Shown piece by piece: positions 21,565 to 51,240 of a stretch of DNA of 64,000 nt. The position numbers and the translations under genes are program-made. The DNA comes from Hyphomicrobiaceae bacterium (GTDB taxonomy: Bacteria; Pseudomonadota; Alphaproteobacteria; Rhizobiales; Hyphomicrobiaceae). A model generated the notes under the pieces. The model had not been told where the DNA came from and did not search any database. It was given only the letters and a program-made list of their open reading frames with translations. The stretch covers positions 124,001-188,000 of the forward strand of contig JAHDXT010000004.1 of the NCBI GenBank assembly GCA_023384095.1, written 5' to 3'. Each line of letters starts with the position of its first letter. The first letter of the stretch is position 1.

Positions 21565-23541
21565 TCATGCTGCGGCTGCCTTAGGCTGCGCAACGCCTGC
21601 TTCAGGCGCTGCCGGACGCGGCGCAGTGCCCTTGGGCGCGGCCGGCACGCGCAGGAGGCGCACGCCGTTGACGATGACGATCAGCACTGAGAGCTGGTGG
21701 ATCAGCATGCCGCCCGCCATGTGGACGTGACCGCTGAAGACCCCGGCGAGCAGACCCGCCACCGTCAGCAAGGCGATAACGAGGTTCTGGCGCATGTTGC
21801 CGAGCGTCGCGCGCGAGATCGCCATGGCCTCGGGGATCTTTCTCAGATCGTCCTTGAGGAGCGCAATGTCGGCGGTCTCGATGGCGACATCGCTGCCGGC
21901 CGCACCCATGGCGATGCTGGTGTCCGCGGCTGCGAGCGCCGGGGCGTCGTTGATGCCGTCACCGACCATCGCGACATGCGCGCCCTCGGCCCGGAGTGCC
22001 CGGATGCGGGCGAGCTTGTCCTCCGGCATGAGCCCGGCGTGAACCTCGCCGATCCCGACCTCGCCGGCGATCGCTTCCGCCGCCTCGCGCTGATCGCCGG
22101 TCAGCATGACGACGCGCCGGATCCCGATCTCGCGCAGCCGGGCGATGGCAGCCGCGGCGCCCTCGCGGGGCATGTCCGAGAGGCCGAGGAGGCCGACGAG
22201 CCGGCCGTCGAGCGCCACCAGCACCGGCGTCTGACCGGCCGAGAGCAGGCGCGAGAGCGCCGCCTCGCCCTCCGGTCCGAGCGGGATACCGAGCTTGTCG
22301 AGCAGCCGCCGGCTGCCGGCGACGATCTCGCGGCCGTCGTGGCGGGCGCGGATGCCCATGCCGGCGTGCTCGTCGAACTCCTCCGGCGTCGGCAGCGTGC
22401 CGAGCGCACTTCCCTCCGCGACGATCGGCCGGCCGAGCGGGTGGTCCGAACCAGCCTCAGCGATGGCGGCAAGTCGCAGCACATCCGCCTCCGCTGCGGT
22501 CCAGCGGCCCTCGACCGATCCGCCCTGCCCGTTACCGAGCGCGACGACCGTGGCCAGCCGCGGACGACCCTCGGTTATCGTTCCCGTCTTATCGACCGCG
22601 AGCGTGTCGATCCGGCCGGCGTTCTCCAGGTGCTGACCGCCCTTGATGAGGATGCCGCTGCGCGCGGCGCGGCCAATGCCGGCGACAATGGAGACTGGCG
22701 TCGAGATCACCAGCGCGCCGGGGCAGCCGACGACGAGCAGCGTCAGCGCGAGCCGCACGTCACGTGTGAAGGCGAAGGCGAGGACCGCAAGGCCGATGAT
22801 GGCCGGTGTGTACCATTGGGCGAAGCGCTCGATCATGCGCTGGGTCGGCGCCTTTTCCTCCTGGGCCTCCTCGACCCGTTGGATGATGCGCGCCAGCGTG
22901 GTGTCGGCGCCGACACTGGTGGCCAGGATGCGCAGGAGGCCATTCTCGGCGATGGTGCCGGCATGGACGCGGGCACCCGGTGCCTTCTCCGCCGGCATCG
23001 GCTCCCCGGTGATCGCCGCCTCGCTGACAGCGGCGGTACCCTCGACGACCTCGCCGTCCACCGGGATCCGCTGCCCGGCCTTGACGAGCACCATCTCGCC
23101 CGGCCGCACCGCATGAGCCGCGACCTCGACCGGCTCGCCATCGCGCAGCACGACCGCCGTGGCCGGCGCTGCACTGAGGAGCTCCTTCAGCGCGCCGCGG
23201 GTCTGGCCCATGGTTCGCATCTCGAGCCAGGCGCCGAGCATGAACAAGAAGGTGACAGCAGCCGCCTCCCAGACCTCGCCGATGATCAGCGCGCCAACTG
23301 CGGCGATGGTGACAAGAAGCTCGATGCTGAGATGGCGCACTTCGAGCGCCCGCCAGGCCCGAACGGCGATGTCCGATCCGGCGAGCAGGGCAGCGGCCAC
23401 CATCAGCGCTGTCCACACCTCGACCCAGCCGAAGCCGTAGCGCGCCAGCAGGCCCGTGACGATCAGCCCGCCGCTGCCTATTGTCAGCCAGAGACGCCGC
23501 CGCGCCGGATGTCCCAGCGCAGCCTTCATCCTCGCAATCAT
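21565..23541 (-). CDS. P1B-type heavy-metal-translocating ATPase with CPG motif
   Basis: VGCPGALVISTPVS TM6 motif, DKTGTITEG, TGEPMP, GDGINDAPALAAAD; lacks an N-terminal HMA domain. Confidence 0.9.
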   Translation of the reverse strand: MIARMKAALGHPARRRLWLTIGSGGLIVTGLLARYGFGWVEVWTALMVAAALLAGSDIAVRAWRALEVRHLSIELLVTIAAVGALIIGEVWEAAAVTFLFMLGAWLEMRTMGQTRGALKELLSAAPATAVVLRDGEPVEVAAHAVRPGEMVLVKAGQRIPVDGEVVEGTAAVSEAAITGEPMPAEKAPGARVHAGTIAENGLLRILATSVGADTTLARIIQRVEEAQEEKAPTQRMIERFAQWYTPAIIGLAVLAFAFTRDVRLALTLLVVGCPGALVISTPVSIVAGIGRAARSGILIKGGQHLENAGRIDTLAVDKTGTITEGRPRLATVVALGNGQGGSVEGRWTAAEADVLRLAAIAEAGSDHPLGRPIVAEGSALGTLPTPEEFDEHAGMGIRARHDGREIVAGSRRLLDKLGIPLGPEGEAALSRLLSAGQTPVLVALDGRLVGLLGLSDMPREGAAAAIARLREIGIRRVVMLTGDQREAAEAIAGEVGIGEVHAGLMPEDKLARIRALRAEGAHVAMVGDGINDAPALAAADTSIAMGAAGSDVAIETADIALLKDDLRKIPEAMAISRATLGNMRQNLVIALLTVAGLLAGVFSGHVHMAGGMLIHQLSVLIVIVNGVRLLRVPAAPKGTAPRPAAPEAGVAQPKAAAA

Positions 23542-23655
23542 TGCACTCGGTCCTTCTTTCGATGGCGCGGCCGCGGGATGTGAGACGGCCGCGCAGCAGG
23601 TTGCCCTGCGATGTCTGGGTTATCCGGTCTGGATCGACCCGGATGGAACGGGTGA

Positions 23656-23682
23656 GGCGGCAGAGGCCTCGCCCCTGCCGCC
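23656..23682. other. Perfect 8-bp stem inverted repeat between HMA gene and ATPase gene
   Basis: GGCGGCAG-AGGCCTCGCCC-CTGCCGCC. Confidence 0.4.
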
Positions 23683-23693
23683 AGCGGCTCATC

Positions 23694-23930
23694 TCAGCCG
23701 AAGGCCGAGGGCCGCGCCTCGTAGCCGGTTTCGCGGACCGCCTCGACCAGCGCCTCGACGCTCGTCCGGGCCGGATCGTACTCCACCTCGATCTTGCCAC
23801 TGTTGAACCGGACCTCGGCCTTCTCCACGCCCGGCAGACTCCGGAGCGCCTTCTCGATCTTTGGTATGCAGGACGGGCAGGACAGCTCATCGCTGCGCAA
23901 CACGGCCCGGATGATGGTGTTCTGAGACAT
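23694..23930 (-). CDS. Heavy-metal-associated (HMA) domain protein / metallochaperone
   Basis: ELSCPSCIPKIEKALRSLPGVEKAEVRFNSGKIEVEYDPA: HMA fold with CxxC. Confidence 0.88.
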   Translation of the reverse strand: MSQNTIIRAVLRSDELSCPSCIPKIEKALRSLPGVEKAEVRFNSGKIEVEYDPARTSVEALVEAVRETGYEARPSAFG

Positions 23931-24162
23931 GATTACCTCCTTTCTCTCAGGGTAGGGCTCGTCTTGGAGCCCTGCCTTGACTGAGATCTATGTCGACCCG
24001 GCCCACTTCGCGATTGGCAAAGCCGGCAAGTTCATCTTGCACGAATGCACAGGCAGAACCGCACTGTGTCTGGTGGGACTGAAGACGACAGAGTCCGCCG
24101 CAACCTTGCGAGGCCGCCGGACCGGCAGAGCGAAGCTCGGCTTGGCGCCATGCAAAGATCGA

Positions 24163-24187
24163 CGGCGGAGCGCATAATGCTCCGCCG
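24163..24187. terminator. Hairpin downstream of the DUF6448-like gene
   Basis: CGGCGGAGC-GCATAAT-GCTCCGCCG, 9-bp perfect stem. Confidence 0.4.
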
Positions 24188-24229
24188 CCGGGAAATGCTT
24201 TAATTATCGGTGAGCTTTCGCGCCGCCGC

Positions 24230-24817
24230 TCAGTGTGCGTGACCTTCGGCCTTGAGGGCGGCGTGGATGCCTTCGGCATACTCGATGAAGGCGAACTCCG
24301 CGTTCACCCGCTCCCGGGCCTCGGCGACCGTGTCCGCGGTTTGGGGCGGAGTGTTCCGTGTGCTCTCCAGCACCTTCTGCGCCGCCTTGAACCGATCCTC
24401 GAGCAAGCGCTCGACGGCGCCGCTGAGAAGTGTTTTCACCTGCGCCGGATCGCCCGTTTCGAGCGCCTTCTCGGCGGCGGGAATGACCGGGCCATGGTTG
24501 ATTCCCGCCGGCTGCAGCCCGGTATAGGCTGCGCCTTCACCTTCCCGGTGCAGGCGGACCACCGTTTCCATGAACCAGCGTTGGGCGACCTCTGCAGCGG
24601 CTTTTCCGTCGCCCTTCGCCTTCAAGGCCATCCGGTGGGCTGCCTTGATCTCATCCTCGGCCGAAGCCGGCGCGTAAGGCAGCGCCAGGTTCACGTTGCC
24701 GGTCTCGAGCGCTTCAATCGCGGCGCCTGCCACCGGCCCATCGACGCTGTCGCAGTGGGCGAAAGCGGGACTGGCGAGAAAGCCGGCGATTACGGTAGCC
24801 ATCACTAATCTGCGCAT
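24230..24817 (-). CDS. Secreted DUF6448-like protein
   Basis: MRRLVMATVIAGFLASPAFAHCDSVDGPVAGAAIEALETGNVNLALPYAPASAEDEIKAAH; start reassigned inside the spurious 499-aa ORF. Confidence 0.65.
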   Translation of the reverse strand: MRRLVMATVIAGFLASPAFAHCDSVDGPVAGAAIEALETGNVNLALPYAPASAEDEIKAAHRMALKAKGDGKAAAEVAQRWFMETVVRLHREGEGAAYTGLQPAGINHGPVIPAAEKALETGDPAQVKTLLSGAVERLLEDRFKAAQKVLESTRNTPPQTADTVAEARERVNAEFAFIEYAEGIHAALKAEGHAH

Positions 24818-24934
24818 GACGATACTCCTCAGCTCTTGCGTTGGCGGCCCGGCCTCGATTGGACCTTGCCTCGGCAGGAAGCTAAGACTTTCGACGCGGC
24901 GCAGGGATTGGCCAAGGTCGCAAGGCGGATTTGC

Positions 24935-25846
24935 ATGAATGCACAGCATGCCAACTGGGACGACCTCCGGCTGTTCCTCGCGGTGGCGCGCGCCGGCTCG
25001 CTCTCGGGGGCGGCGCGGGCGCTCGGCGTCAACCACTCCACCGTCTTCCGGCGCGTCGGCGCCTTCGAGGAGGCGATCGAGGTCCGGCTCTTCGAGCGGT
25101 TGCCGAGCGGCTACGTCCTGACCGAGGCGGGCGAGGAGATGCTGGAGACGGCGTTGCGGGTCGAGGCGGAAATCTCGGAGCTCGACCGCAAGATCGCCGG
25201 CCAGGATCTGCGTCTGAGCGGCACCGTCCGCATCACCACGGTCGACATGCTGGCGCTCGGCCTGCTGCCGCGTCACCTCGCGGCCTTCCACGCGGCCTAT
25301 CCGGGCATCGAGCTCGAGGTCGTCGCCACCAACGCCGCGGTCAGCCTCAGCCGGCGCGAGGCCGACGTCGCGCTCCGGGTGAGCAATCAGCCGCCCGAGA
25401 CGCTGGTGGGGCGCCGCGTCGGCCGCCTCGTCTTCGCCGCCTACGGTGCCGCCGCGGCGACGGACGGGACCGCGGACGTCCCGCTGGCGGAACGGGACTG
25501 GATCGGGTTCGACTCCGACCATGAGGCCCTCGTCCGCCGCTTTGCCGACTTCCTCCCCGAGACCCGGCCGATCTTCCGCGCGAACTCGGTCGCCGTGGCC
25601 ATTGCAGCGGCCAAGGCCGGCATCGGTCTGGCCCCGCTGCCTTGCGGCATCGCCGACCTCGAGCCCGACCTCGTGCGCGTCGCGCCGCTGCCGGACGACT
25701 TCATGCGCGACCTCTGGCTCCTGACCCACGAGGATCTGCGGCGGACGGCACGCATCCGCGCCTTCCTTGACTTCCTCGCCGCCGCGCTTACTGCCGAGGC
25801 GCCGTTACTGGAAGGGCAAAGGCCGCGTGCCTGGAGCAACGGATAA
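24935..25846 (+). CDS. LysR-family transcriptional regulator
   Basis: WDDLRLFLAVARAGSLSGAARALGVNHSTVFRRVGAFEEAI wHTH; LysR substrate domain; divergent from the DUF6448-like gene. Confidence 0.9.
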   Translation: MNAQHANWDDLRLFLAVARAGSLSGAARALGVNHSTVFRRVGAFEEAIEVRLFERLPSGYVLTEAGEEMLETALRVEAEISELDRKIAGQDLRLSGTVRITTVDMLALGLLPRHLAAFHAAYPGIELEVVATNAAVSLSRREADVALRVSNQPPETLVGRRVGRLVFAAYGAAAATDGTADVPLAERDWIGFDSDHEALVRRFADFLPETRPIFRANSVAVAIAAAKAGIGLAPLPCGIADLEPDLVRVAPLPDDFMRDLWLLTHEDLRRTARIRAFLDFLAAALTAEAPLLEGQRPRAWSNG

Positions 25847-25939
25847 ACAAAACCTGTAACTCCCCAACTGCACCCTCAAAGGGACGAAAGCGTGCCCAAT
25901 TGAGGTGTTTGATAGCGCAGTTCCGTCCCAATCCGAGGA

Positions 25940-27925
25940 TCACCGCCACCCGGGTGTGCCGCAACTCCGAGATTCTTGCATAGCTCGACCGATCTCCTGC
26001 GGCCGGATGACATCCTTTACGGCGTCGATCGCTGCCGACCGCGAACTCACGGACCGCACCGAGTCGAACAGCAGCCGCAGGCCGTTCATAACGACCAGCA
26101 CGGTGCCGCCCTCGTGCCCGATCACTGCCAGCGTCAACGGCAGCTCGAAGAACAGGGCGCCGGACACGAGCACGAGCATGGCTCCCATCGCAAAGACGAG
26201 GTTCTGCCGGATGATGCGGGCCGCCCGCCGCGCCAGACCATGGGCGGCAGGCAGGCGGGCCATGTCTTCCGAGAGCAACGCCACGTCGGCGGCTTCCAGA
26301 GCGACATCACTGCCCGCAGCGCCCATCGCGATACCGACCTCGGCTCGGGCCAAGGCGGCTGCGTCATTCACGCCGTCGCCAACGAAGGCAACCTTGCCTG
26401 CCTTCGCCATTTCCCCGACCAGATGCACCTTGTCCTCAGGCAAGAGATCAGAATGGATTTCGTCAGGCGACAGGCCGAGCTCTGCGCCTATCCGGAGGGC
26501 AACCGGCCGCCGGTCTCCGGTCATCATGGCGATGCGGTCTATTCCGGCCTCTCTCAATTGATCGAGGGCGGGGCGTGAGCTTGCCCGAACGCTATCCGCG
26601 ACGGCAACTGCCCCCAGAATACGAGCACCGCGCCCGACCCAGATGACCGTCTCGGCCTCGTCGAGCAAAGCCGCGAACGCCGGTTTCTCCACATCGACGC
26701 CCATCCGGGCGGCCATGCGCCGGTTGCCGGCCCATAGCATGCCCATGGCATCGCGTCCTGTGATCCCTTCGCTCGGTCTCGTGACCACGTCGGACACGGA
26801 CGCCGGGGCAAGCCCTCGCTTATTCGCAGTCCGATGGACTGCTGCAGCAATGGGATGCTCCGAATGGGCCTCCAGGCCGGAGACAAGGCTCAGAAAGTCA
26901 TCCTCGGGCATGCCCAAACTGATGATGCCGGTGACTTCTGCCCGCCCTGTGGTCAGGGTGCCCGTTTTGTCGAAGGCGAACTGCGAAACAGCCGCAAATG
27001 TCTCGAGCGCAGCGCCGCCCTTGAACAGAACGCCGCCTCGCGCTGCCGCCGACAATGCCGAGAGGATCGCTGCCGGCACGCTGATCACGAGAGCACACGG
27101 GCTCGCGGCGACCAGGACGACCGCGGCGCGGTAAGCCGCATCACTCCATTCCCGGCCAAGCCACAGGAAAATGGCAAGCGCGATCACGGCCCCGGCGAGG
27201 ACGCCGATGGTATAGCGCTGACCAAACCACGCGCTGAACCGTTCCGAAGGCGCCCGAGCGGCCTGAGCTTCCGTCACCAGCTGGATCATACGGGCGACGG
27301 TGCTGTCGCTCATGGTGGCGGACACCCTCATCTCGAGCACGGAGCTCTGGTTGACGGTCGCTTCGAACACCTTGGCGCCCGGAGCCTTGCTCACGGGCAT
27401 CGACTCGCCGGTCACCGTCGACTCGTCAATCTCTCCTTCTCCGCTCAGCACGATGCCGTCGACCGGGATCTTCGCCCCCGGACGCACCACCACGACATCG
27501 TCGACCTCGAGCTGCGCGATTTGCACTTCCTCGACGTCGGCGCCGGTCTTGCGGAGTGCCGTTTCCGGGCGCAGACCCATGAGCGCCTCGACCTCGCGCC
27601 GGGCCCTGCCCAGGGCCAACGTTTCCAATGTGGTGGACAGACTGAACAGGAACAGCAGAATCGCACCCTCGGCCGGTGCACCTACGCCGGCTGCGGCCAG
27701 GGCGGCAATGATCATCAGAAGATCGATGTCCAGCGACCGCTCGTGCCACAGGCTCTTGAGGGCGCGCCGTGCGGTCGGCACGCCGCCCGCCAGATAGACC
27801 AGTCCGAAGCCGAGCGGGCTGAGAGCCGCCCACCCGACATAAGGCGCGGCAAAGCCGACGACGATGCCGATGAACGTGAGCGCGCTCAGCACAACGCTGA
27901 ACCGCTCGGCTGCTCGATCATCCAT
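25940..27925 (-). CDS. P1B-4-like metal-translocating P-type ATPase (SPC motif)
   Basis: AASPCALVISVPAAILSALSAAARGGVLFKGG, DKTGTLTTG, VGDGVNDAAALARAEVGIAMG; start at Met 27925. Confidence 0.9.
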   Translation of the reverse strand: MDDRAAERFSVVLSALTFIGIVVGFAAPYVGWAALSPLGFGLVYLAGGVPTARRALKSLWHERSLDIDLLMIIAALAAAGVGAPAEGAILLFLFSLSTTLETLALGRARREVEALMGLRPETALRKTGADVEEVQIAQLEVDDVVVVRPGAKIPVDGIVLSGEGEIDESTVTGESMPVSKAPGAKVFEATVNQSSVLEMRVSATMSDSTVARMIQLVTEAQAARAPSERFSAWFGQRYTIGVLAGAVIALAIFLWLGREWSDAAYRAAVVLVAASPCALVISVPAAILSALSAAARGGVLFKGGAALETFAAVSQFAFDKTGTLTTGRAEVTGIISLGMPEDDFLSLVSGLEAHSEHPIAAAVHRTANKRGLAPASVSDVVTRPSEGITGRDAMGMLWAGNRRMAARMGVDVEKPAFAALLDEAETVIWVGRGARILGAVAVADSVRASSRPALDQLREAGIDRIAMMTGDRRPVALRIGAELGLSPDEIHSDLLPEDKVHLVGEMAKAGKVAFVGDGVNDAAALARAEVGIAMGAAGSDVALEAADVALLSEDMARLPAAHGLARRAARIIRQNLVFAMGAMLVLVSGALFFELPLTLAVIGHEGGTVLVVMNGLRLLFDSVRSVSSRSAAIDAVKDVIRPQEIGRAMQESRSCGTPGWR

Positions 27926-28291
27926 GTATACCTCAACACCCTTCAGGCACTGTAGGTGGTTCGCACCCGGTAGCAAGGAGCGTAGCCGCGCACCCAGTTC
28001 CCGGCGCATCACCTGGCCGGAGCGAAAGTTGGGATCTGCGTCGTATGCAAAAGAACCCTTTTTGAAGGTTAGCGACGGGAATGACCCTCATTCAACTTTG
28101 TCGTGATAAGGCGGCGGCGGTCGAAGCCGGAGCAGAAGTTGGCGTCTACACACGATACAAGGCCGGCGGAAAACAGCTATCCGAGTAGGCAGTTAACCGG
28201 CGCGTCGCAGCCACCGACGTGCAGATTTCCCGCATCCGGGTCCTCGCCCGCGAGCTTCGCTCAAGAAACGTGAGTATCAAGTCTCGTCACC

Positions 28292-29674
28292 TTAGCAAAT
28301 CGGGCTCTTGTCGGAGTGCCCTGGCAACCTGTCATATGTGCTGAACGTGAATCTGGCTTCGAAACCGTCCTGACGGCCTTCCCGCGGCGAAATCAGTTCG
28401 ATCTTGCCACCAGTGCCGGAAGCGATTGCCTTCGCGATGGCCAGCCCCAGCCCGGCGCCATCTACTTGAGCCCGGCCACGCTCGAACGGCTCGGACAGGC
28501 GGGCGAGCACATCCGGGAGAACCACTGGTCCAGCGTTGGAGACGCTTAGCTCGCCGCTTGGCGACAGCGCGACGCGCACCGGCTCGCTGCGGGAGCCGTG
28601 CTTCAAGGCATTCTCGATCAGGTTCCTTGCCAGGATTGCGAAGGCATCGGGATCGATGCAGGAGAGTACCGGGCTGCCGGGTAGGATCAGTTCGAAGCCC
28701 TCTGCGCAATCGACGCTCCCCGTCATTTCGTCAACGACCATCCGTAGGATGGCGGCGACGTCGGTCGGCTCCGCTGCTTGCAGGCGCCCGCCTTCGGCCC
28801 TCGCCAGTTGCATCAACTTTTCCGATAGCCTGGAGAGTCGCCGCAGTGCCGTCTCGATCTGCTGCGCCCGCTCGCGCGTGGTGTCGTCCGCCGCCTCTGC
28901 GATGAGCCTTTGGGTCTGCGCGAGAGCGGCTGCGACTGGGGTACGCAGCTCGTGCGCCGAATTCGCTGTGAAACTGCGCTCCGCCTCCAGCGTGCGCCTG
29001 AGCCGCGCGAGCAGGCGATTGACCGCTCTTGCGATCGGCCGGATCTCGGCGGGTAGGTCATCGGCCGCAACAGGGCTCAGATCGCCGCCGCCACGCGCTT
29101 CGATTCCTGAACGGAGGGTCCGGATCGGCGCCATCGACACCCGCACAATACCCCAGACGCCGATCAGGCTGAGGGGGACGATCAGGCCGAGCGGCAGGGC
29201 GAGCCCGAGCAGCGCCTCCCTGGCCGCCGTGCGGCGGTGGGCGAGCGGCTCGGCGACGGCGATGGAGATCGTGCCTCGCAGGGCGGCGTCGAAATAGAGG
29301 CGGTGGGTCGGCGTGTCGGCAAAACCCATGTGAGTGAATGGAGGAAAGACGGCCAGATCGGCGTTGTGCGAGCGCAGCAGGACCTTGCCCTCGGCATTCC
29401 GCACCACGTAGGTGAAATATTCGTCGTGCTGGCGCAGTGTCGCTACGCGTCGGGTTGTTTCGTCGTCGTCCTCGTCGCCATCACGGCCGATGATATCGAG
29501 GACGGCCAGCGGCAGGATGCGCTGCGCCGTTTCCTCCAGCGCGCTGTCGAAGACCTCGTTCATCTCATGGCGCAGATTATGCGCTGTCACCGCGGCAGCG
29601 ATAGCCCACAGCAGCGCCACGCCGAGCCCCAGTCCGAGCGAAAGCCGCCATTGCAGGCTCTTGGGCCACATCAT
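28292..29674 (-). CDS. Sensor histidine kinase (QseC-like)
   Basis: FTANSAHELRTPVAAALAQTQ H-box, GAGLGLAIAKAIA G-box; 4-bp overlap with the response regulator. Confidence 0.88.
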   Translation of the reverse strand: MMWPKSLQWRLSLGLGLGVALLWAIAAAVTAHNLRHEMNEVFDSALEETAQRILPLAVLDIIGRDGDEDDDETTRRVATLRQHDEYFTYVVRNAEGKVLLRSHNADLAVFPPFTHMGFADTPTHRLYFDAALRGTISIAVAEPLAHRRTAAREALLGLALPLGLIVPLSLIGVWGIVRVSMAPIRTLRSGIEARGGGDLSPVAADDLPAEIRPIARAVNRLLARLRRTLEAERSFTANSAHELRTPVAAALAQTQRLIAEAADDTTRERAQQIETALRRLSRLSEKLMQLARAEGGRLQAAEPTDVAAILRMVVDEMTGSVDCAEGFELILPGSPVLSCIDPDAFAILARNLIENALKHGSRSEPVRVALSPSGELSVSNAGPVVLPDVLARLSEPFERGRAQVDGAGLGLAIAKAIASGTGGKIELISPREGRQDGFEARFTFSTYDRLPGHSDKSPIC

Positions 29675-30333
29675 CTGGCACTTCCGAGCCGGTAGCCGAT
29701 GCCGCGCACCGTATCGACTATCGAATGCCCCAGCTTCTTGCGAAGGCGGCTGACGTGAACCTCGATCGTGTTGCTTTCCACCTCGGCGCCGAAAGCATAA
29801 AGCCGCTCTTCCAGCTGCGTCTTGGACAACACCTGGCCGGGGCGTTGAACGAAAGCCTCGAACAGCGCCCACTCCCGGGCGGTCAGATCGACCAGGCGGC
29901 CAGCGCGTACTACCGTTCTCGCGGCCAGGTCGACCTGCAGATCGCCGAACTCGATCAGTGGATTTGGATTGCCGCTGTAGCGCCGCGCCACGGCGTTCAG
30001 CCGCGCCGATAGCTCGGAGAGATCGAACGGCTTGATCATGTAGTCGTCCGCGCCCGCGTTGAGCCCCTGGATGCGGTCGGAAATCTGATCCAGCGCCGTC
30101 AGGATCACGACTGGCGTAGCGCAGCCCTTCATCCGCAGCTTGCGCAGGAAGCCGAGGCCGTGTCCGTCGGGAAGCATCATGTCCAGGAGGATAAGGTCGT
30201 AAGCCGCGCTGTCGAGATGGTCGCCTGCCGCGTCGAGACGGGTCACCCAGTCGACCGAATGGCTATCGGCGACGATGTGGTCACGCACTGCGGCGCCCAG
30301 GATCGTGTCGTCTTCGACCAGAAGGATTCTCAT
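29671..30333 (-). CDS. OmpR-family response regulator (QseB-like)
   Basis: MRILLVEDDTILGAAVRDHI, LILLDMMLPDGHG, Trans_reg_C (VESNTIEVHVSRLRKKLG). Confidence 0.92.
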   Translation of the reverse strand: MRILLVEDDTILGAAVRDHIVADSHSVDWVTRLDAAGDHLDSAAYDLILLDMMLPDGHGLGFLRKLRMKGCATPVVILTALDQISDRIQGLNAGADDYMIKPFDLSELSARLNAVARRYSGNPNPLIEFGDLQVDLAARTVVRAGRLVDLTAREWALFEAFVQRPGQVLSKTQLEERLYAFGAEVESNTIEVHVSRLRKKLGHSIVDTVRGIGYRLGSAR

Positions 30334-30474
30334 GCGCTCGGTCCTTCCCGCTCCCCCGTCGGATGGCAGCCAAACCTGTCAGGAAGCTGACGCGGAGATC
30401 GAGCCCGCTTCAGGTGTTCGTCAGGGAAGATTGCCATCGTCCGTTCCAATGAACCTTGAGCGAGGACAACTGAA

Positions 30475-30870
30475 ATGATGAAGCACGCAATGGCAGCATT
30501 CCTGGTGATCGCGCTCGCCGGCTCCGGCGCCGCGATGGCGGACGACGACGACTGTCAGGTCCCCATGGACCAGTGGCAGCCGCGCGAGGCAGTGCAGAAG
30601 ATGGCCGAAGCCCGTGGCTGGAAGGTGAGCCGGATCAAGATCGATGACGGCTGCTACGAGATCAAGGGGACCGATGAGACCGGCCAAAGATTCAAGGCCA
30701 AGATCGACCCCGCGACCCTTGCGACCGTCAAGCTGAAGCGCAAGGGGCAGGACCATGAGTCTCGCGAGATGCGCGACCAGCGCCAGCCGGTACAGGCCGG
30801 CGGGAGCGGCGAGCTCCCCTCCAACGAACTATTCAAAACGGGCAAGCCACCGAAAATTGAAGTCAAGTGA
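30475..30870 (+). CDS. PepSY domain periplasmic protein
   Basis: Signal peptide, EAVQKMAEARGWKVSRIKIDDGCYEIKGTDETGQRFKAKIDPATLATV. Confidence 0.8.
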   Translation: MMKHAMAAFLVIALAGSGAAMADDDDCQVPMDQWQPREAVQKMAEARGWKVSRIKIDDGCYEIKGTDETGQRFKAKIDPATLATVKLKRKGQDHESREMRDQRQPVQAGGSGELPSNELFKTGKPPKIEVK

Positions 30871-30924: not shown

Positions 30925-31440
30925 ATGCCCACCAATTCCGCCCGCTATTCGAAAATCATGATCGTCATTCATTGGTTGACCGCCCTCGCTGTGGTCGGCG
31001 CATGGCTGACCTCGGAAGGCGGCCGGCACATGGTAGAGAACCCGCCTCTGCTGCACTTTTCGTTGGGGCTCGCGGTGCTCGTGCTCATTGTGCCGCGTCT
31101 CATTCTGTTGCTCACGGGAGGAGCGCCCGATGTGGGAAGGAAGCGTGATCGGCTCGCCATCGCGACCAAGGCCGGTCATGTGGCGCTTTACCTGTTCCTG
31201 ATCGCCCTGCCGCTGACCGGCTGGTACGCCGCATCACGCATGGGCGTGCCGGTGTCGTTCTTCGGCCTGGAGCTTCCGGCGATTGCCGCGCCGGTCAAGG
31301 GCCGTCCCGGCCTGATCGCCGAGCTGCATGAAAATGCCGGCACCTTCATCCTTTACGTCGCCGGCCTGCACGCCCTGATGGCGCTCTGGCATCAGTTCGT
31401 TTTGCGCGACGGCACTCTGCAGCGCATGAGCCTGCGCTGA
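30925..31440 (+). CDS. Cytochrome b561
   Basis: YSKIMIVIHWLTALAVVGAW, LLHFSLGLAVL, GLIAELHENAGTFILYVAGLHALMALWHQFV: 4-TM b561 with His ligands. Confidence 0.88.
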   Translation: MPTNSARYSKIMIVIHWLTALAVVGAWLTSEGGRHMVENPPLLHFSLGLAVLVLIVPRLILLLTGGAPDVGRKRDRLAIATKAGHVALYLFLIALPLTGWYAASRMGVPVSFFGLELPAIAAPVKGRPGLIAELHENAGTFILYVAGLHALMALWHQFVLRDGTLQRMSLR

Positions 31441-31811
31441 CAGAATTGGAACGCCACTGTTCTCGCTCGGCCTTCCCGCCTGTGCACTCAGGCAGGGGTG
31501 CCGAGCGGCCATTTCCCCTTACGGTGGCTTTCGCAAGGGCGTTTTTTGGCTCTGCATCTGATCGCGGCTGACCTGGCGGGAAATCATCTGATCCCGCCAT
31601 TTTTATCGCACGATCCCTAATCACCGGACCAGTAACCCGCACCATCATTTCCTGACGCCAAGCTTAAGCAAAAACCGCGGCACCGTCAGGAAGCACTCAG
31701 CTGCTTTCTCCAGATTGATTGCACCGGAACGGCGGAGGTGAAACTCCAAAGGTCTGGTCCGTACGAAGACAAATCCATGTTTCAGCCCTGACATAAAGAG
31801 GCAAAGTCGAC

Positions 31812-32282
31812 ATGAAATCCTTTCTCGCCGCGCTGGCGCTGACCACGGCGCTCACGTCCCCCGGCCTTGTCTTGGCCCGGCCCGTCACGCTGACCACAAC
31901 GATGAACAGCTACGGCGGCGATGGCGCCTACCTCGCGTTCTATGTCACCGATGCGAAGGATGCCTATGTCGGCAGCCTGTGGATGGCCGGCGACAAGTCG
32001 AAGTATTACGAGCACCTGTCGGGCTGGTATCGCGCCCCGGGCGGCAAGCCTGCCGAGATCAACGGCATCACGGGCGCCAGCGTCGGTGCGGGCCGCACGC
32101 TCGAAATCACACTCGATCTGGCCGACGCGCTGTTCGACGCGGGCTACACACTGCACATCGATGCCGCTGTCGAGGACATGCGCGACAGCCCCAACGATGT
32201 TGCCGTGCCGCTGACGACCGATGGTGCCGGCAACCCGGTGCGCGGGCGGCGCTACATCGCCAGCTTCGCTTACGGCATGTGA
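31812..32282 (+). CDS. DUF2271 domain periplasmic protein with GITGAS motif
   Basis: Signal peptide; YLAFYVTDAKDAYVGSLWMAGDKSKYYEHLSGWYRA is typical of DUF2271; NGITGAS at codons 84-90. Confidence 0.8.
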   Translation: MKSFLAALALTTALTSPGLVLARPVTLTTTMNSYGGDGAYLAFYVTDAKDAYVGSLWMAGDKSKYYEHLSGWYRAPGGKPAEINGITGASVGAGRTLEITLDLADALFDAGYTLHIDAAVEDMRDSPNDVAVPLTTDGAGNPVRGRRYIASFAYGM

Positions 32283-32293
32283 CCGGGGGAGCC

Positions 32294-34501
32294 ATGATCC
32301 GTGTACTCCACCGCTGGCCGGGGCTTCTGGCCGCGCTCTTGCTGATAGTGCTGAGCCTCAGCGGTGCGGCTCTATCAATATTTCCCTCCGTAGAGCGCCT
32401 GTCAGCACCGCAGGCCGAGACCACGCTTTCGGTAGCGGACCTCGCAGAACGCATTCAGGCCGTCTACCCGGAGGTGGAGCAGATCCGAAGGGCAGCCTCG
32501 GGCAAGATCACCGCCTACTGGTTCCAGGATGGCGCGCCCCAGGCGGCGGTGATCGATCCAGCGAGTGGTCGCGCGGTCGCATCCGCCGATCCGAACCAGC
32601 TCGAGCGGTGGCTGACCAACCTGCACCGCTCGCTCTTCCTCGACGACGGTGGCCGTCTGATCATGGTGGGTGGCGCCGCTGCCATGCTGGTGCTGGCCTT
32701 GTCCGGCATTGTGCTCATCGCCCGCCGCGTTGGCGGCTGGCGGCGCTGGTTCGCGCCGATGCGCGGACCGCTCAGCGGGCGGCTCCATGTCGAGACCGCG
32801 CGGGTTGCCGTTGCCGGTCTCCTGCTGTCCTCGGCCACGGCACTGTGGATGACCGCCTCGACTTTTGATCTTCTTCCAGACGGCAGCGCACGGCTTGCCA
32901 TTCCGGCCGAGGTGAGCGGTCAAACAGGTGCAGCTGTTTCGACAATGGATGTTCTGAAAAGGACGCCAGTTGCTGAACTGCGCGGGCTGACATTCCCCGC
33001 CCCCGGCGACGCTTTGGATGTCTTTACCCTCAAGGCCGATCGCGGCACCGGATATCTCGATCAGGGCACCGGCGCGCTATTAGCCTGGAGCGATCTGACG
33101 GGATGGCAATACGCAACTAAAACCATTTACATGCTGCACACCGGCCAGGGTGCAGCCGTGCTGGGACTCGTCCTGGGGCTGATGGCGCTCGGCGTGCCGG
33201 TGATGGCGGGTACGGGCTTGGTCCTCTGGTTTGCAGCCCGGCGCGGGCGCCCGCGCATTCGCGGCAACGCCCCTGCCGGACGCGCCGATACCATCGTGCT
33301 CGTCGGCAGCGAAGGCGGCAGCACCTGGGGCTTCGCCGCAACGCTGCATGCTGCGCTGTCGGATGCGGGGCAGGCCGTTCACGCTGCCTCGATGTCATCC
33401 TTCGATCCGGCACGCTACGGCCGAGCGCGGCGCATCCTGATCCTGGCCGCCACCTATGGCGACGGCGACGCACCCGCCTCGGCCAAAGGCTTCCTCGATC
33501 GGCTGAAGTCCCTGCCCGCAGCCCCGAACGCACAGCTGGCGGTTCTCGGCTTCGGTGACCGCAGCTTCCCGGCCTACTGCGCCTTCGCAAAGGCGGTCGC
33601 CGAGACGGCGAAGGCCAGAGGCTGGGAAACACTGATCCCGTTCGAGACAGTTGACCGCCAATCGACACAGGACTTTGCCCGTTGGAGCCGATTGCTGGGC
33701 GCGGCAATAGGCATCGAGCTCGAGCTTGTCCATCAGCCGGTCCTGCCCGCGGCATGTCGGCTGGAGCTTGTTTCGCGACGGGATTACGGGGCCGACGTGC
33801 AGGCTCCGACAGCCATCTTGCGTTTCGAGCTGCCCAAGGCGCCGCTCTGGCAGCGGCTGACGGGGCGCGGCTTCGGCCGCTTCTCTGCCGGGGATCTCAT
33901 CGGCATCCTGCCAGAGGGCTCGGCCGTGCCCCGCTTCTATTCACTGGCCTCGGGAAACCGCGACGGCTTCATCGAGATCGTTGTGAGGAAACATCCGGGC
34001 GGCCTGTGCTCCAGCCGGCTCATCGACCTCGAGCCGGGCGATACCGTCTGCGCTTTCCTCCGGCGCAACCCAAGCTTCCATCCCGGCCGCAGCCGCGCAC
34101 CCCTGATCCTGATCGGAGCCGGGACGGGGATCGGGCCGCTCGCGGGGTTCGTGCGCGCCAATTCACGGCGCCGCCCAATCTACCTGTTCTTCGGCATGCG
34201 CCACCCCGACAGCGACTTCCTTTATGGCCAGGAGCTGGCGTGTTGGCAGCGGGAGGGTCGACTTCGGCAGCTCTCGACGGCTTGCTCCCGCGGGCGGAAG
34301 CCTCGCTATGTGCAGGACGCATTGCGCGGGGAAGCCGCCGAGATCAAACGCCTGATCGGCAAGGGCGCGCGGGTCATGGTCTGCGGCGGGCGCGACATGG
34401 CGGCCGGGGTTTCTGCGGCACTCGCCGACATTCTCGCGCCCGCAGGATTGACACCGGCCCTGCTGAAAGCGGAGGGGCGCTATGTCGAAGACGTCTACTG
34501 A
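32294..34501 (+). CDS. PepSY-TM / flavodoxin / FAD-NAD(P)H reductase fusion (CysJ-like flavoreductase)
   Basis: PepSY TM helices, then GSEGGSTWGFAATLHAALSDAG flavodoxin P-loop and GAGTGIGPLAGFVRA NAD(P)-binding motif; start at ATG 32294. Confidence 0.88.
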   Translation: MIRVLHRWPGLLAALLLIVLSLSGAALSIFPSVERLSAPQAETTLSVADLAERIQAVYPEVEQIRRAASGKITAYWFQDGAPQAAVIDPASGRAVASADPNQLERWLTNLHRSLFLDDGGRLIMVGGAAAMLVLALSGIVLIARRVGGWRRWFAPMRGPLSGRLHVETARVAVAGLLLSSATALWMTASTFDLLPDGSARLAIPAEVSGQTGAAVSTMDVLKRTPVAELRGLTFPAPGDALDVFTLKADRGTGYLDQGTGALLAWSDLTGWQYATKTIYMLHTGQGAAVLGLVLGLMALGVPVMAGTGLVLWFAARRGRPRIRGNAPAGRADTIVLVGSEGGSTWGFAATLHAALSDAGQAVHAASMSSFDPARYGRARRILILAATYGDGDAPASAKGFLDRLKSLPAAPNAQLAVLGFGDRSFPAYCAFAKAVAETAKARGWETLIPFETVDRQSTQDFARWSRLLGAAIGIELELVHQPVLPAACRLELVSRRDYGADVQAPTAILRFELPKAPLWQRLTGRGFGRFSAGDLIGILPEGSAVPRFYSLASGNRDGFIEIVVRKHPGGLCSSRLIDLEPGDTVCAFLRRNPSFHPGRSRAPLILIGAGTGIGPLAGFVRANSRRRPIYLFFGMRHPDSDFLYGQELACWQREGRLRQLSTACSRGRKPRYVQDALRGEAAEIKRLIGKGARVMVCGGRDMAAGVSAALADILAPAGLTPALLKAEGRYVEDVY

Positions 34502-35444
34502 TCTGACGCGCTGGGCGCTGAACGGACCCACCATGGGCACGCGCTGGTCGGCATTGTTTTACACACCGGAGGGGTTCGATGCGAAACCTGTCCAGGATGC
34601 GCTTCAAGCTGCGGTGGATGAAGTGGACACCCAGATGTCCACTTGGAATCCCGACAGCGACTTGATGCGCCTGAATGCTGCCCGGCCGAAGCACTGGGTG
34701 GCGATCCCCGGTCAGTTGAGGGACGTGCTGAGGATTGCGCTGAGGATCGGCCGAGCCTCGGGCGGCGCCTTCGACATCGGCCTGGGTGATGTGGTAAGGG
34801 CGTGGGGCTTTGGGCCCGAAGCCGCCGACCAGCACCTCATTCGGAAAGCACTCGATGCCCCACGCCGGCCCGCTCACGAGGTGCTGGAACTCGACCCTGA
34901 TGGTGAAAGGGCGCGCAAGACTGCCCCCATCGTCCTTGACCTCAACGGCATCGCCAAGGGTTACGGCGTGGACCGGCTGGCCGAAACCCTGCGCGGCTTC
35001 GGGATCTCGTCCGGGCTGGTTGGCATCGACGGCGAAATGCGGGCGCTTGGCCTGCGCGCCGACGGCGAGCCCTGGAGCATCGCGGTCGAGGCCCCCGACC
35101 CCGACCGCCGCGCGCCGCATTCGATCCTGGCATTGCAGGATGCCGCGGTCGCGACATCCGGCGACTACCGGCACTGGATCCTCGTCGGGGGGCGCCGCCT
35201 GTCCCACACGATGGACCCGCGCCGCGGCGCGCCCCTGATGACGCCGCCCGCCTCGGTCACCGTCGTCGCACGAACCTGCGCCGAGGCCGATGCCTGGGCA
35301 ACGGCATCGATGGTCCTTGGGCCGAAGGTCGGCCAGGAGCTCGCGCAGCGCCTCCGTCTCGACGTGCTGTTTTTCACGGGCGATGTGGAAGGTGTCAGGG
35401 CCTTAGCAAGCGGGCCCTTGTTTTCGGGAGAGCTTTCGCGATAG
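34482..35444 (+). CDS. apbE: FAD:protein FMN transferase
   Basis: GPTMGTRWSALFYTPE, STWNPDSDLMRLNA, DIGLGDVVRAWGFGPE, VLDLNGIAKGYGVDRLAE; overlaps the upstream gene. Confidence 0.92.
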   Translation: MSKTSTDLTRWALNGPTMGTRWSALFYTPEGFDAKPVQDALQAAVDEVDTQMSTWNPDSDLMRLNAARPKHWVAIPGQLRDVLRIALRIGRASGGAFDIGLGDVVRAWGFGPEAADQHLIRKALDAPRRPAHEVLELDPDGERARKTAPIVLDLNGIAKGYGVDRLAETLRGFGISSGLVGIDGEMRALGLRADGEPWSIAVEAPDPDRRAPHSILALQDAAVATSGDYRHWILVGGRRLSHTMDPRRGAPLMTPPASVTVVARTCAEADAWATASMVLGPKVGQELAQRLRLDVLFFTGDVEGVRALASGPLFSGELSR

Positions 35445-35828: not shown

Positions 35829-37211
35829 TCAAGAGCATGCCCAGTCCCCTGTGACACGCGCCGGTATCGAAACATTGGCAGAAAGCCCTCGCGGGTCACG
35901 ATTCATAAGCTCCAGAGAACCGCCAAGCCGCTCTATCGCGAGTTGCGCGATTGCCAGTCCAAGGCCGCTCCCGATCTCTGTTTTATTTCTACCCCGAAAA
36001 AACCTTTCGGTGGCGCGAGGCAGTTCCTCCTCAGGAATGCCCGGTCCCTCGTCTTCGATCATAATCCGAACATCCGTCCCGTCCTTCGCGCTGCTGCACA
36101 CGATTGTGCCGCCTTTAGGCGAATGACTGATACTGTTTTCAAGCAGATTGCGAAGCGCCAGCATCAAGAAATGCGGCTCGATCCATGCTTTGGTCTTGCC
36201 ATCGCCAAGCTCAATCCTGATCGCCACGCCGCAGCGGCTCGCCAGGGCTTGTTGCTCCGCGATGACAGTCTGCACGAGGCTGGAAATGCTTTCATTGGTG
36301 GGGCTCGGTTCGGCCTCGCTGGCCTCCAATAAGGCCAAATCGAGAAGTTGCTTCACAAGGCGGCCGGTGCGATCGACGCCGGTGGCAATCTGGCGAAGGG
36401 CGTTGGCGTGCACCTCGGCATCGGCACTGCCGAGCGCGATTTGCGCCTGCGTTTTTAGTCCGGCCAGGGGAGTTCTGAGTTCATGGGCCGCGAAAGCTGT
36501 GAAACTACGCTCCCGCTCCCTCGCGGCATCGACCCGCTTGAATAGTGAATTCAGTGCGTCGACAGCAGGCGCGATCTCGTCCGGCATATCGGAGATCGGC
36601 AATGGTCTAAGGTCGCTGGCTTTACGCGACGACAGCGTGCGCGCCATGTCGCTGAGGGGCCTGAGCCCACGCTTGACACTCAGCCAGATCAAGCCTCCGA
36701 GAAACGGAAAGATGATGGTTGCCGGCAGCAGGAGCCCCTTTATGACGTCCCCAACCAACCGCTCGCGGACACCCAGGCTATCGCCGATCATTACGCTTAC
36801 GCCGAGCTCAGCATTTTCGATGGAGTAGACGCGCCAAATTTCGCCGTTGATTTCGTTTTCTGAAAAGCCCTGCTTAGCTTTCGTCAAGCGCGCATCAGGT
36901 GCTCCTGTGGAACGGGCGATCAGCGCGCCGCTGAGCGACCAGATCTGACACGAGAGTTGGCGTCCATAGGATGACGGATTGCTGCCGGCTTGCAAGGCTG
37001 CACTCACGGCAGCACCCTGCGCAACGCCGATCGCGATTCGCTGATCAGTCAAAAGTGAATTCACCATGCGGGCCGCTTCGGCGAGCCGTGCATCGAGCAC
37101 ACGCTCCACTTCGGCCTGGGTGCTGGCATAAATCCAAATTACCGCCGAGAGCCAGACAAGACCCGTCGTGCCAATCAGAATGGCAATGAGACGCGTTCTG
37201 ATGGAATTCAC
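35829..37211 (-). CDS. Sensor histidine kinase (QseC-like)
   Basis: RSFTAFAAHELRTPLAGLKTQAQIALGSADAEVHANALRQIATGVDRTGRLVKQLLDL; GSGLGLAIAQLA. Confidence 0.92.
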   Translation of the reverse strand: MNSIRTRLIAILIGTTGLVWLSAVIWIYASTQAEVERVLDARLAEAARMVNSLLTDQRIAIGVAQGAAVSAALQAGSNPSSYGRQLSCQIWSLSGALIARSTGAPDARLTKAKQGFSENEINGEIWRVYSIENAELGVSVMIGDSLGVRERLVGDVIKGLLLPATIIFPFLGGLIWLSVKRGLRPLSDMARTLSSRKASDLRPLPISDMPDEIAPAVDALNSLFKRVDAARERERSFTAFAAHELRTPLAGLKTQAQIALGSADAEVHANALRQIATGVDRTGRLVKQLLDLALLEASEAEPSPTNESISSLVQTVIAEQQALASRCGVAIRIELGDGKTKAWIEPHFLMLALRNLLENSISHSPKGGTIVCSSAKDGTDVRIMIEDEGPGIPEEELPRATERFFRGRNKTEIGSGLGLAIAQLAIERLGGSLELMNRDPRGLSANVSIPARVTGDWACS

Positions 37212-37873
37212 GGGGTATCCTCGGCCAGCCGGTAACCGAGTCCCCGGACCGTCTTTATGAAGTTTGGTCCGAGCTTCGTACGCAAATGGTGGACGTGGAC
37301 CTCCACCGCGTTGCTCTCCACCTCCTCCTGCCAGCCGTATAGAGTTTCCTCCAGTGCCGCCTTCGGGACAGTGGCCATCGGCCGCTCCATGAGCGCCCGG
37401 AGCACTGAGAATTCACGCCGGGTGAGCTTCAGTGGAGCGCCGCCTCTGGTCGCGGTAAGCTGCGCCGGATCGAGCATGACGCCGCGCCACTCCAGAATAG
37501 CATTGGCGCGCCCCACCCCCCGCCGTGCGACGGCGCGCAGGCGGGCCGCCAGCTCATCGAGGTCGAAAGGCTTGCCCATATAGTCATCCGCGCCGGCATC
37601 GAGCCCGGAGATGCGATCTGCCACCTGATCGCGTGCGGTAAGCAGGACCACCGGCGTGCTGTCCTTGGCGCCGCGCAATTCAGCGAGAACATCGAGCCCG
37701 GACCCATCCGGCAGCATGAGATCGAGCACGATCGCATCATAGCGCTGGGCGCGGGTCGCCGTCGCCGCGTCCTCACAGCTCGATACGGCATCGACAGTAA
37801 ACCCTGCGAGCCCGAGGCCGACGGTCAAGCCGTCGACCAGCATCGGATCGTCTTCCACTACGAGTATGCGCAT
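37208..37873 (-). CDS. OmpR-family response regulator (QseB-like)
   Basis: MRILVVEDDPMLVDGLTVGL; LMLPDGSGLDVLAELR; VESNAVEVHVHHLRTKLGPNFIKTVRGLGYRL. Confidence 0.93.
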   Translation of the reverse strand: MRILVVEDDPMLVDGLTVGLGLAGFTVDAVSSCEDAATATRAQRYDAIVLDLMLPDGSGLDVLAELRGAKDSTPVVLLTARDQVADRISGLDAGADDYMGKPFDLDELAARLRAVARRGVGRANAILEWRGVMLDPAQLTATRGGAPLKLTRREFSVLRALMERPMATVPKAALEETLYGWQEEVESNAVEVHVHHLRTKLGPNFIKTVRGLGYRLAEDTP

Positions 37874-37980
37874 GCTGCTTCTTCTATAGCCCACCCGCCA
37901 GCAAGCAATCCTGGCTTAAGGCTGCCTTAAGCTGGCCATCCCACCTCCGTGCCGCGCCAATTCGCAATGCCTCAGGGGCG

Positions 37981-41988: not shown

Positions 41989-42060
41989 GTGCCCAATGTG
42001 GGCCACAAATGAAGGCTGACAACCTTCTGACGGGAATGGTTTCATGGTGTGAGGTTCAGG

Positions 42061-45720: not shown

Positions 45721-46272
45721 TCACTGCTTCTTGGTTTTCGAGATGGCGGCCTCGACCGCCGGGCCGGCTTTGGCCGGCTTGACGACGATGACGCCCTTCA
45801 TGCCGGCTTCCATATGGCCGGGAATGAGGCATGCGAACTGGAATTCGCCCGCCTTGGTGAAATGCCAGACCGCGCTCGTGCCGGCCTTGGGCTTGAGCCG
45901 TTTCATGTTCGGCTCGTCGTGCTCCATCTCCGGGTTCTTCGCCATTTCCTCGGCGTGCTTCAAGTTCTCCTCGAAGGTCGCCAGCACGAACTCGTGCTCG
46001 AGCTCGCCATGGTTTTTCATGACGAAGCGGATCTGCTCGCCCTGCCGCACCTCGATCCGGCTCGGCACGAACTCCATTTTGCCGTCGCCCTCGCGCATGA
46101 TCACCTCGACCGTGCGTGACTTCTTCTTCGGGTCACCCGGCCGGCCGAAGTCGGTCTCCCCGTCGTGGGAATGGCTGTGACCGGCTGCACCCGGCCCTGC
46201 CGCGGCCAGTCCGGCGGACGCGACCAGGACCGCAAGCGACGCAAGTGCAGCGCCCATGCCTCGTAATTTCAT
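45721..46272 (-). CDS. Cupredoxin-like copper-binding protein
   Basis: HSHSHDG..., RQGEQIRFVMKNHGELEHEFVL, FTKAGEFQFACLIPGHMEAGMKG (type 1 copper site). Confidence 0.9.
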   Translation of the reverse strand: MKLRGMGAALASLAVLVASAGLAAAGPGAAGHSHSHDGETDFGRPGDPKKKSRTVEVIMREGDGKMEFVPSRIEVRQGEQIRFVMKNHGELEHEFVLATFEENLKHAEEMAKNPEMEHDEPNMKRLKPKAGTSAVWHFTKAGEFQFACLIPGHMEAGMKGVIVVKPAKAGPAVEAAISKTKKQ

Positions 46273-46297
46273 CGGGGTATCCTTCTTGCTGTTGATG

Positions 46298-47701: not shown

Positions 47702-47719
47702 ATACTCCTTGAACGAATA

Positions 47720-49201: not shown

Positions 49202-49246
49202 CCGTATGATCCCGTGTGTTCTTGTCTGCGGCCACTGGCGCGGGCG

Positions 49247-49558
49247 CTAATGCCGCTGCAAGTCCTGATGCCCTGAACGTGCGGCCCCCTGCGATGGTGC
49301 AGTTTGGCCGCGTGGCGCTGTCGGCTGCGGCAGAGCGCCCCGAGGCGCAACCCGGCGGTTGACGTCACCCCATGGCAGCGGCTCAACCGGGCGATAGCTC
49401 CGCGTTCCCGCGAGTACCGACTGGTATGGTGCTGGCGGCACTGCAGCCCACGGATCGGCAGAACTGCCTGCCCAGGTGCGCGCTGGATCAAGAGCTAGAA
49501 CGGCTGCCGAGATGAGCACTGCGGCCAAGGCTGCACGAGCCAACGAAATGTGACGCAT
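49247..49558 (-). CDS. Hypothetical secreted protein
   Basis: Signal-peptide-like N-terminus, Pro-rich body; same strand, upstream of tolC. Confidence 0.35.
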   Translation of the reverse strand: MRHISLARAALAAVLISAAVLALDPARTWAGSSADPWAAVPPAPYQSVLAGTRSYRPVEPLPWGDVNRRVAPRGALPQPTAPRGQTAPSQGAARSGHQDLQRH

Positions 49559-49688
49559 GGTTTGACGTCCAAAGCTTGCAGTTTGGATTTGATTGGGATG
49601 ACGGCCATGGCAGGCCGCATGCCCAGTGCTGCCGGGAGAGCCGGGATCGCGCGCCGCACGCCCGAGCTTTAGCGAGCGTCAGATCCCA

Positions 49689-50105
49689 TCAGGACCGTCG
49701 TGGTGGTCGTTCCAGGCCTGAAATCATCTGGCTTGCTGGGACCGCAACTAGCGGGGCGCGCATCCTCTCCCCGAAACGCTGCGGGACCCACGCCGTGGAG
49801 GCCGTCTCTTCGACGGCGGCGTGACAGGCAAGGCTGCCGCAGCAGGATTGGCGGTCCATTGGAGCGATTGGCGGTGCCGATCCGTCGTCGCCAGATCCGA
49901 CGTTAAGGCTGTCGGTGCGGGTAGCGCCAACGTTTTCTGTAGCGGCGACCGGGGAGATGGAGGGTTGAACCTGCAGGGAAGCCGAAGCGATCGGTTTCTG
50001 CACATGCCCGAAATGGGCCAATGCGCGGTCCGCAGTGCCAAACAAGGTGAATATGGCTGCGATGAGTGCAGCCCAGATCACCGTCTTGGTAGGCCTTTGC
50101 GCCAT
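49689..50105 (-). CDS. Small secreted protein, CopL-like
   Basis: Signal peptide; SCCGSLACHAAVEE and C-terminal MISGLERPPRRS similar in layout to the other two CopL-like ORFs. Confidence 0.5.
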   Translation of the reverse strand: MAQRPTKTVIWAALIAAIFTLFGTADRALAHFGHVQKPIASASLQVQPSISPVAATENVGATRTDSLNVGSGDDGSAPPIAPMDRQSCCGSLACHAAVEETASTAWVPQRFGERMRAPLVAVPASQMISGLERPPRRS

Positions 50106-51231: not shown

Positions 51232-51240
51232 GCGTTGACG

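Follow-up and report, generated by a model that had tools for sequence, protein, structure and literature searches.

A horizontally mobile DUF2271–PepSY–ApbE cassette as a probable extracytosolic electron-transfer module under two-component control

What does a small exported protein with a flavinylation-like motif do in the company of redox genes, and what switches it on? The question is raised by a locus in the 64,000-nucleotide stretch of DNA that we analysed (the window: positions 124,001 to 188,000, forward strand, of contig JAHDXT010000004.1, Hyphomicrobiaceae bacterium assembly GCA_023384095.1), where genes for a DUF2271 protein, cytochrome b561, two PepSY proteins and the FAD:protein FMN transferase ApbE (FAD, flavin adenine dinucleotide; FMN, flavin mononucleotide) lie side by side. 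A first-pass annotation, made from the sequence alone, read these genes as one operon for a route from NAD(P)H to a covalently flavinylated periplasmic DUF2271 protein. Our analysis favours, with reasonable if far from complete confidence, a horizontally mobile, two-component-regulated module for electron transfer outside the cytosol, the predicted function of which is most likely that of a sensor-controlled NAD(P)H-to-periplasm reductase of a metal, probably Fe(III). The core of this picture, i.e. flavinylation of DUF2271 at [S/T]GA[S/T] and the clustering of PepSY, DUF2271 and ApbE genes, is already published (eLife 2021, PMC8238504), and with DUF2271 already known to be modified by ApbE, less is new here than the first-pass annotation assumed. 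Within the literature that we searched, the new part is a branch of the family with a serine acceptor and its own regulator, a composite operator and an ApbE without an export signal: what began as a flavinylation-like motif is now a defined branch, open to test, with a regulator and an operator of its own.

The DUF2271 gene (31812-32282, forward strand) encodes 156 residues with a Sec-type leader and a PF10029 domain (E 3.9e-34; 117.8 bits against a Pfam cut-off of 27.3), and its NGITGAS motif (N84-G-I-T87-G-A-S90) occupies positions 32061-32081; the first pass had placed both exactly. It had also proposed that conservation of GITGAS be checked: among 81 close homologues, a set chosen partly by a pattern that overlaps the motif site, GITGAS is unchanged in 62/62 distinct sequences, with Asn at residue 84 in 59 of the 62. 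Because of this partial selection we added further DUF2271 proteins from two genome samples selected by the Pfam profile alone. Across a diverse alignment of 36 rows G88 and A89 do not vary, and residue 90 is always Ser or Thr; the latter holds for 78/78 rows of the wider set, in some of which the middle Gly-Ala varies. TGAS shares its alignment column with the SGAT/TGAT of the other branch and with the published site of the family tested by mutagenesis: in A. ursilacus ApbE flavinylates the DUF2271 protein, and flavinylation is lost when Thr at the site is changed to Ala (PMC8238504). A chance origin of NGITGAS was rejected given its invariance and this shared column. By published convention FMN is attached to the last Ser/Thr of the motif (review), which points to S90 (codon 32079-32081) as the acceptor; of the two residues proposed in the first pass, S90 stands and T87 drops out, residue 90 being Ser or Thr throughout. 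Judging from these comparisons, the protein almost certainly carries a covalently bound flavin in the periplasm, as had been predicted and as fits the published family property (PMC8238504). All 56 of the DUF2271-positive genomes tested encode at least one ApbE, a count confined to DUF2271-positive genomes. A search by sequence returned no solved structural homologue; the AlphaFold model is a beta-sandwich whose confidence is low in the motif loop (63-90) and which has only weak C2/Ig-like matches, on which we base no structural claim. ApbE-DUF2271 fusions also occur (loci L159, L162, L192 and L194), mostly with a leader and lacking the motif Gly-Ala (e.g. DGVSRPTR).

In a tree built after removal of the motif columns two branches separate: the 34 rows of one all carry a Ser acceptor, and nearly all of the 44 rows of the other carry Thr (100 percent support for the split in the Shimodaira–Hasegawa-like approximate likelihood-ratio test, SH-aLRT, by a quick method). 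The window protein belongs to the Ser branch and is ~21-26 percent identical to the Thr branch, the sites of which are SGATRAP-like. A response regulator gene lies within 4 kb in 30/34 Ser-branch rows as against 1/44 of the others, and a query-based tally of neighbours gave PepSY 98, P-type ATPase 65, VIT 54 and ferric reductase 45 for 102 Ser-branch loci versus 0, 1, 0 and 0, respectively, for the remaining 45 DUF2271 loci. One gene order is found in most of the 80 related loci, which are almost exclusively alphaproteobacterial according to their record titles: kinase and response regulator genes divergent from PepSY, a cytochrome b or other gene, DUF2271, PepSY-reductase and ApbE. Annotated plasmids, with Pfam checks, show another PF01292 cytochrome b or a ferric-reductase-like flavocytochrome in the cytochrome b561 slot, and often a heavy-metal P-type ATPase and a VIT-family transporter 3' of the cassette. 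The DUF2271 protein was found on 97 plasmid records (71 predicted conjugative; 38 are near-identical Pseudosulfitobacter plasmids), and such spread on conjugative plasmids suggests that the cassette is of genuine benefit to its hosts, probably in managing the redox state of metals. The near-identical cassettes of a Klebsiella michiganensis plasmid (L108) and a Marinobacter plasmid (L109) stand beside phosphonate/phosphite genes that both plasmids share and have no adjacent ApbE.

The anatomy of the next gene fits an electron route across the membrane. It encodes a fusion of 735 residues (32294-34501, forward strand) in which Pfam recognises PepSY_TM (PF03929, E 2.2e-33), Flavodoxin_1, FAD_binding_6 and NAD_binding_1 (PF00175). 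By both sequence and fold matches the reductase half is CysJ/P450-reductase-like; the diflavin reductase half dominates the matches of a fold search with the whole model, which has no bearing on likeness to FoxB. H6, H111, H165 and H282 of the membrane half are invariant across 27 sequences. In the literature on FoxB such a four-His pattern goes with two haems, which suggests that the fusion binds two as well. The CysJ/P450-like half and the four invariant His make a route NAD(P)H–FAD–FMN–haems–FMN well supported by anatomy, and the route from reductase through PepSY to DUF2271 drawn in the first pass is upheld by the reductase domains, these His and the published family pattern. Upstream on the same strand lie genes for a small secreted PepSY_2 protein (30475-30870; 131 residues; PF13670, E 1.7e-30), which is kept beside the two-component genes and is by analogy with DbfQ a candidate regulator of the kinase or metal binder, and for cytochrome b561 (30925-31440; 171 residues; PF01292, E 1.9e-23). 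The gene content of the proposed operon is confirmed; its unity is not, since the genes seem to be transcribed as two units that answer to a single two-component system. A predicted terminator-like hairpin followed by a U-run at 31574-31607 (forward strand; fold z-score -3.08), between cytochrome b561 and DUF2271, fits this division, although it is missing from a consensus scan.

The regulator lies directly upstream on the opposite strand (28292-30333), outside the operon of the first pass. HK1 (28292-29674, reverse strand) is a sensor histidine kinase with Pfam domains 2CSK_N-HAMP-HisKA-HATPase; its true start is likely the ATG at ~29674, with the open reading frame as listed beginning at 29872. 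Its periplasmic domain carries an HExxE motif (HEMNE) directly after the first transmembrane segment, and ExxE, described as a feature of iron-sensing kinases (literature), recurs in 61/68 distinct HK1 homologues. RR1 (29671-30333, reverse strand) is an OmpR-family response regulator by Pfam, with BasR/PmrA as its nearest solved relative in a search of PDB. Between RR1 and PepSY_2, and again 5' of DUF2271, we found a composite operator: two outward-facing TCAG-N6-GTCAG sites, each an 11-bp direct repeat, 34-35 bp apart. The first copy (30376-30424) comprises 30376-30390 (reverse strand, one mismatch) and 30410-30424 (forward strand, exact), and the second (31652-31700) comprises 31652-31666 (reverse) and 31686-31700 (forward), one mismatch each; both pairs are 34 bp apart, and the second is placed alike in loci L015, L056, L059 and L106. 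Exact TCAG-N6-GTCAG occurs in the RR1/PepSY intergenic regions of 59/61 distinct sequences on one strand and 52/61 on the other, compared with 1/410 stretches drawn at random from these loci. When each site was permitted one mismatch, we counted 184 outward pairs at 34-35 bp, in 94/102 Ser-branch loci and in 0/44 other DUF2271 loci; other spacings were almost absent. Since many of the loci are closely related, the counts are not independent of one another. A blind search of 385 genomes of the class for the exact composite operator gave five places, all RR/PepSY intergenic regions, and the reversed control had 0 matches in the same 385 genomes. Two of the five have DUF2271, and three have PepSY and cytochrome b, where the 3 kb examined around the site showed no DUF2271. 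As the operator is shared by both units and marks RR/PepSY loci without DUF2271, RR1 most likely controls both units, and we conclude that the DUF2271 cassette has been joined to a two-component/PepSY/cytochrome module that exists also without it; we infer that RR1 is the protein that binds the operator. The composite operator offers a direct handle on the inducing signal, and hence on the acceptor, of PepSY/DUF2271 systems. A lone exact TCAG-N6-GTCAG lies at 42016-42030 (reverse strand), without a partner at 34 bp.

Put together, the module might work as follows. HK1/RR1 would answer a signal from the envelope or from a metal, the small PepSY_2 protein likely acting as co-sensor, and RR1, bound to both copies of the operator, would switch on the PepSY_2–cytochrome b561 and DUF2271–PepSY/diflavin reductase–ApbE units. 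S90 of DUF2271 would receive FMN from ApbE. Electrons of cytosolic NAD(P)H would pass through the FAD and FMN of the fused reductase and the two PepSY transmembrane haems to the DUF2271 flavin, a direction of flow that we infer, and this flavin would in turn reduce an oxidised metal, most likely Fe(III); cytochrome b561 may supply the periplasm from quinol in parallel.

The most surprising point, by hydropathy, concerns ApbE itself (34482-35444, forward strand; 320 residues; PF02424, E 1.9e-77; PDB 5mgy/6nxi). Its start overlaps the preceding gene by 20 bp, its N-terminus reads MSKTSTDLTRWALNGPTMGTRW, and a hydropathy test with a generous threshold, used rather than SignalP, found no lipoprotein, Sec or Tat (twin-arginine) leader on it. 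An upstream start with a hidden leader was rejected: an in-frame stop lies a few codons 5', as in nearly all homologues. A leader was scored in 1/95 Ser-branch ApbEs (owing to a false start within the domain) and in 2/26 of the Thr branch; among control ApbEs elsewhere in such genomes, mostly lipoproteins or Tat-type, it was scored in 18/21 at a score of at least 2.0 and in 20/21 at one of at least 1.8. The periplasmic picture of the first pass therefore holds for the exported DUF2271 and leaves the leaderless ApbE unexplained. Either flavinylation would precede export, or ApbE would leave the cytosol by another route. We propose, tentatively and at somewhat less than an even chance, that a dedicated leaderless ApbE flavinylates DUF2271 in the cytoplasm before Sec export, under control of the two-component system and its 34-bp-spaced operator, a second topology in which the substrate carries the flavin across the membrane. 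Export of pre-flavinylated DUF2271 by Tat was rejected, the leader being hydrophobic and of Sec type, and lacking a twin Arg (judged by hydropathy only). Should the leaderless ApbE prove to be the true modifier, the accepted picture of extracytosolic flavinylation needs a second route; the signal-peptide passages of PMC8238504 do not discuss leaderless ApbE, and the cytosolic ApbE known from Klebsiella acts on a cytosolic substrate (review). One could suppose instead that the local ApbE modifies a cytosolic protein, while the DUF2271 motif is a relic or is served by a different ApbE that is exported. The missing leader would suit this, as would the second, NosX-like ApbE of the genome with its Tat-type leader and the Klebsiella and Marinobacter plasmid copies of DUF2271 without an adjoining ApbE; yet the leaderless enzyme beside DUF2271 is the sole ApbE of several complete genomes (e.g. 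G267 and G490 of the Ser branch), and the motif stays invariant, and ApbE adjoins DUF2271 in nearly all other loci, so we hold this explanation to be improbable. The NosX-like gene (L003, contig C89) adjoins a NosR-like gene.

The acceptor, iron, and the signal are the least certain parts of the proposed module. The surroundings of the cassette look like a metal-resistance region: P-type ATPases (one with SPC and one with CPG instead of CPC), a multicopper oxidase, a cupredoxin and an outer-membrane efflux protein lie at 21565-28012 and 45721-54821, and a resistance-nodulation-division (RND) pump at 5815-10313. Because copper and heavy-metal genes are among the neighbours, iron is not the sole candidate, and the module could be a stress device against copper or another toxic metal that keeps periplasmic metal, or envelope thiols and methionines, in a set redox state within the surrounding resistance region. 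The multicopper oxidase, cupredoxin, efflux protein, RND pump, three P-type ATPases, DsbD and a TlpA-like redoxin of the window, together with the many copies on conjugative plasmids, would fit this; the recurrent partners in relatives, on the other hand, are VIT, ferric-reductase-like proteins and P-type ATPases rather than copper genes, and the published functional data on DUF2271/PepSY clusters concern iron. Our literature search found no paper that combines PepSY, ApbE and copper. We regard a metal-stress role as unlikely, and slightly more so than an ordinary iron-assimilation PepSY system in which Fur control has been swapped for a two-component system, itself doubtful. The latter would explain why the core triad is that of the Fur-regulated Caulobacter locus CCNA_03155-03159 and why VIT is present in published PepSY clusters too, but sits poorly with a separate DUF2271 branch of ~21-26% identity with Ser in place of Thr, and with the lack of a TonB receptor or DUF4198 nearby. 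The P-type ATPase beside HK1, furthermore, has the SPC motif that is associated with Fe/Co exporters, suggesting an excess and not a shortage. Fe(III) as the probable acceptor of a regulated reductase is favoured because of the published iron links of PepSY/DUF2271, the VIT and ferric-reductase partners, and ExxE in most HK1 homologues.

Several observations weigh against a two-component-controlled Fe(III) reductase. The cassette sits amid copper and heavy-metal genes; ApbE is leaderless although DUF2271 is Sec-exported; ExxE is a short motif, possible in kinases that sense other things; and the function of every Ser-branch member is a prediction from sequence. Pfam matched neither DUF4198 nor a TonB receptor among the scanned neighbours, neither occurs in annotated relatives, and a Fur box was not searched for; these associations are frequent, not obligatory, in PepSY-like flavinylation systems. 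Finally, the likeness to D-x-x-[S/T]-G-A-[S/T] seen in the first pass is good for [S/T]GA[S/T] and fails at the first position, where N84 replaces Asp; this lowers the flavinylation claim little, because an Asp-to-Ala change there had only a minor effect in one substrate (review).

The closest published counterparts are the systems of Meheust et al. 2021 (PMC8238504), which like the window combine DUF2271 with an [S/T]GA[S/T] site, ApbE and a PepSY_TM protein; 1077 of the published PepSY genes have an NAD-binding domain and 167 clusters have VIT1. The window differs in its Ser acceptor, the divergent two-component system with composite operator, the small PepSY_2 and cytochrome b561/ferric reductase, the absence of DUF4198/TonB and the leaderless ApbE. 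Caulobacter CCNA_03155-03159, which shows a fitness defect with ethylenediaminetetraacetic acid (EDTA), likewise has DUF2271, ApbE and a sulfite-reductase-flavoprotein-type protein (PMC3751524, PMC11870441); Fur control, a gene annotated as a transporter and DUF4198 belong to that locus, and none was found here. The DbfQRS modules of Vibrio cholerae (PMC12714742) also place a small secreted PepSY protein beside a kinase/regulator pair, whereas that of the window is joined to a transmembrane electron-transfer cassette and PepSY_2 is only a candidate for control of HK1. The window shares with the FoxB/HiuB ferrisiderophore reductases (PepSY, di-haem) the PepSY_TM part and the four conserved His expected for two haems, and departs from them in the fusion of PepSY to a cytosolic diflavin reductase and the pairing with a predicted flavinylated partner. 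With the Fe(II)-sensing BqsRS/CarRS of Pseudomonas (PMC4682146, PMC12666569) it has in common an OmpR/BasR-like regulator, a pentamer-N6-pentamer operator, a kinase whose periplasmic domain carries ExxE, and PepSY neighbours; its operator is TTCAG-N6-GTCAG in outward pairs 34-35 bp apart as compared to TTAAG-N6-TTAAG for BqsRS, and a metal response of the window system is putative.

Two further features of the window deserve mention. A DUF6448 protein is encoded at 24230-25729, and DUF6448 genes stand by the cassette also in L108, L109, L043 and L150. TTAAG-N6-TTAAG, the exact published form of the BqsR operator, is absent from the RR1 region and occurs once in the window, at 37916-37931, where it separates DsbD from a second, BasR/CarR-like response regulator (37208-37894); this site possibly reflects an Fe(II)-type system over DsbD and a redoxin gene.

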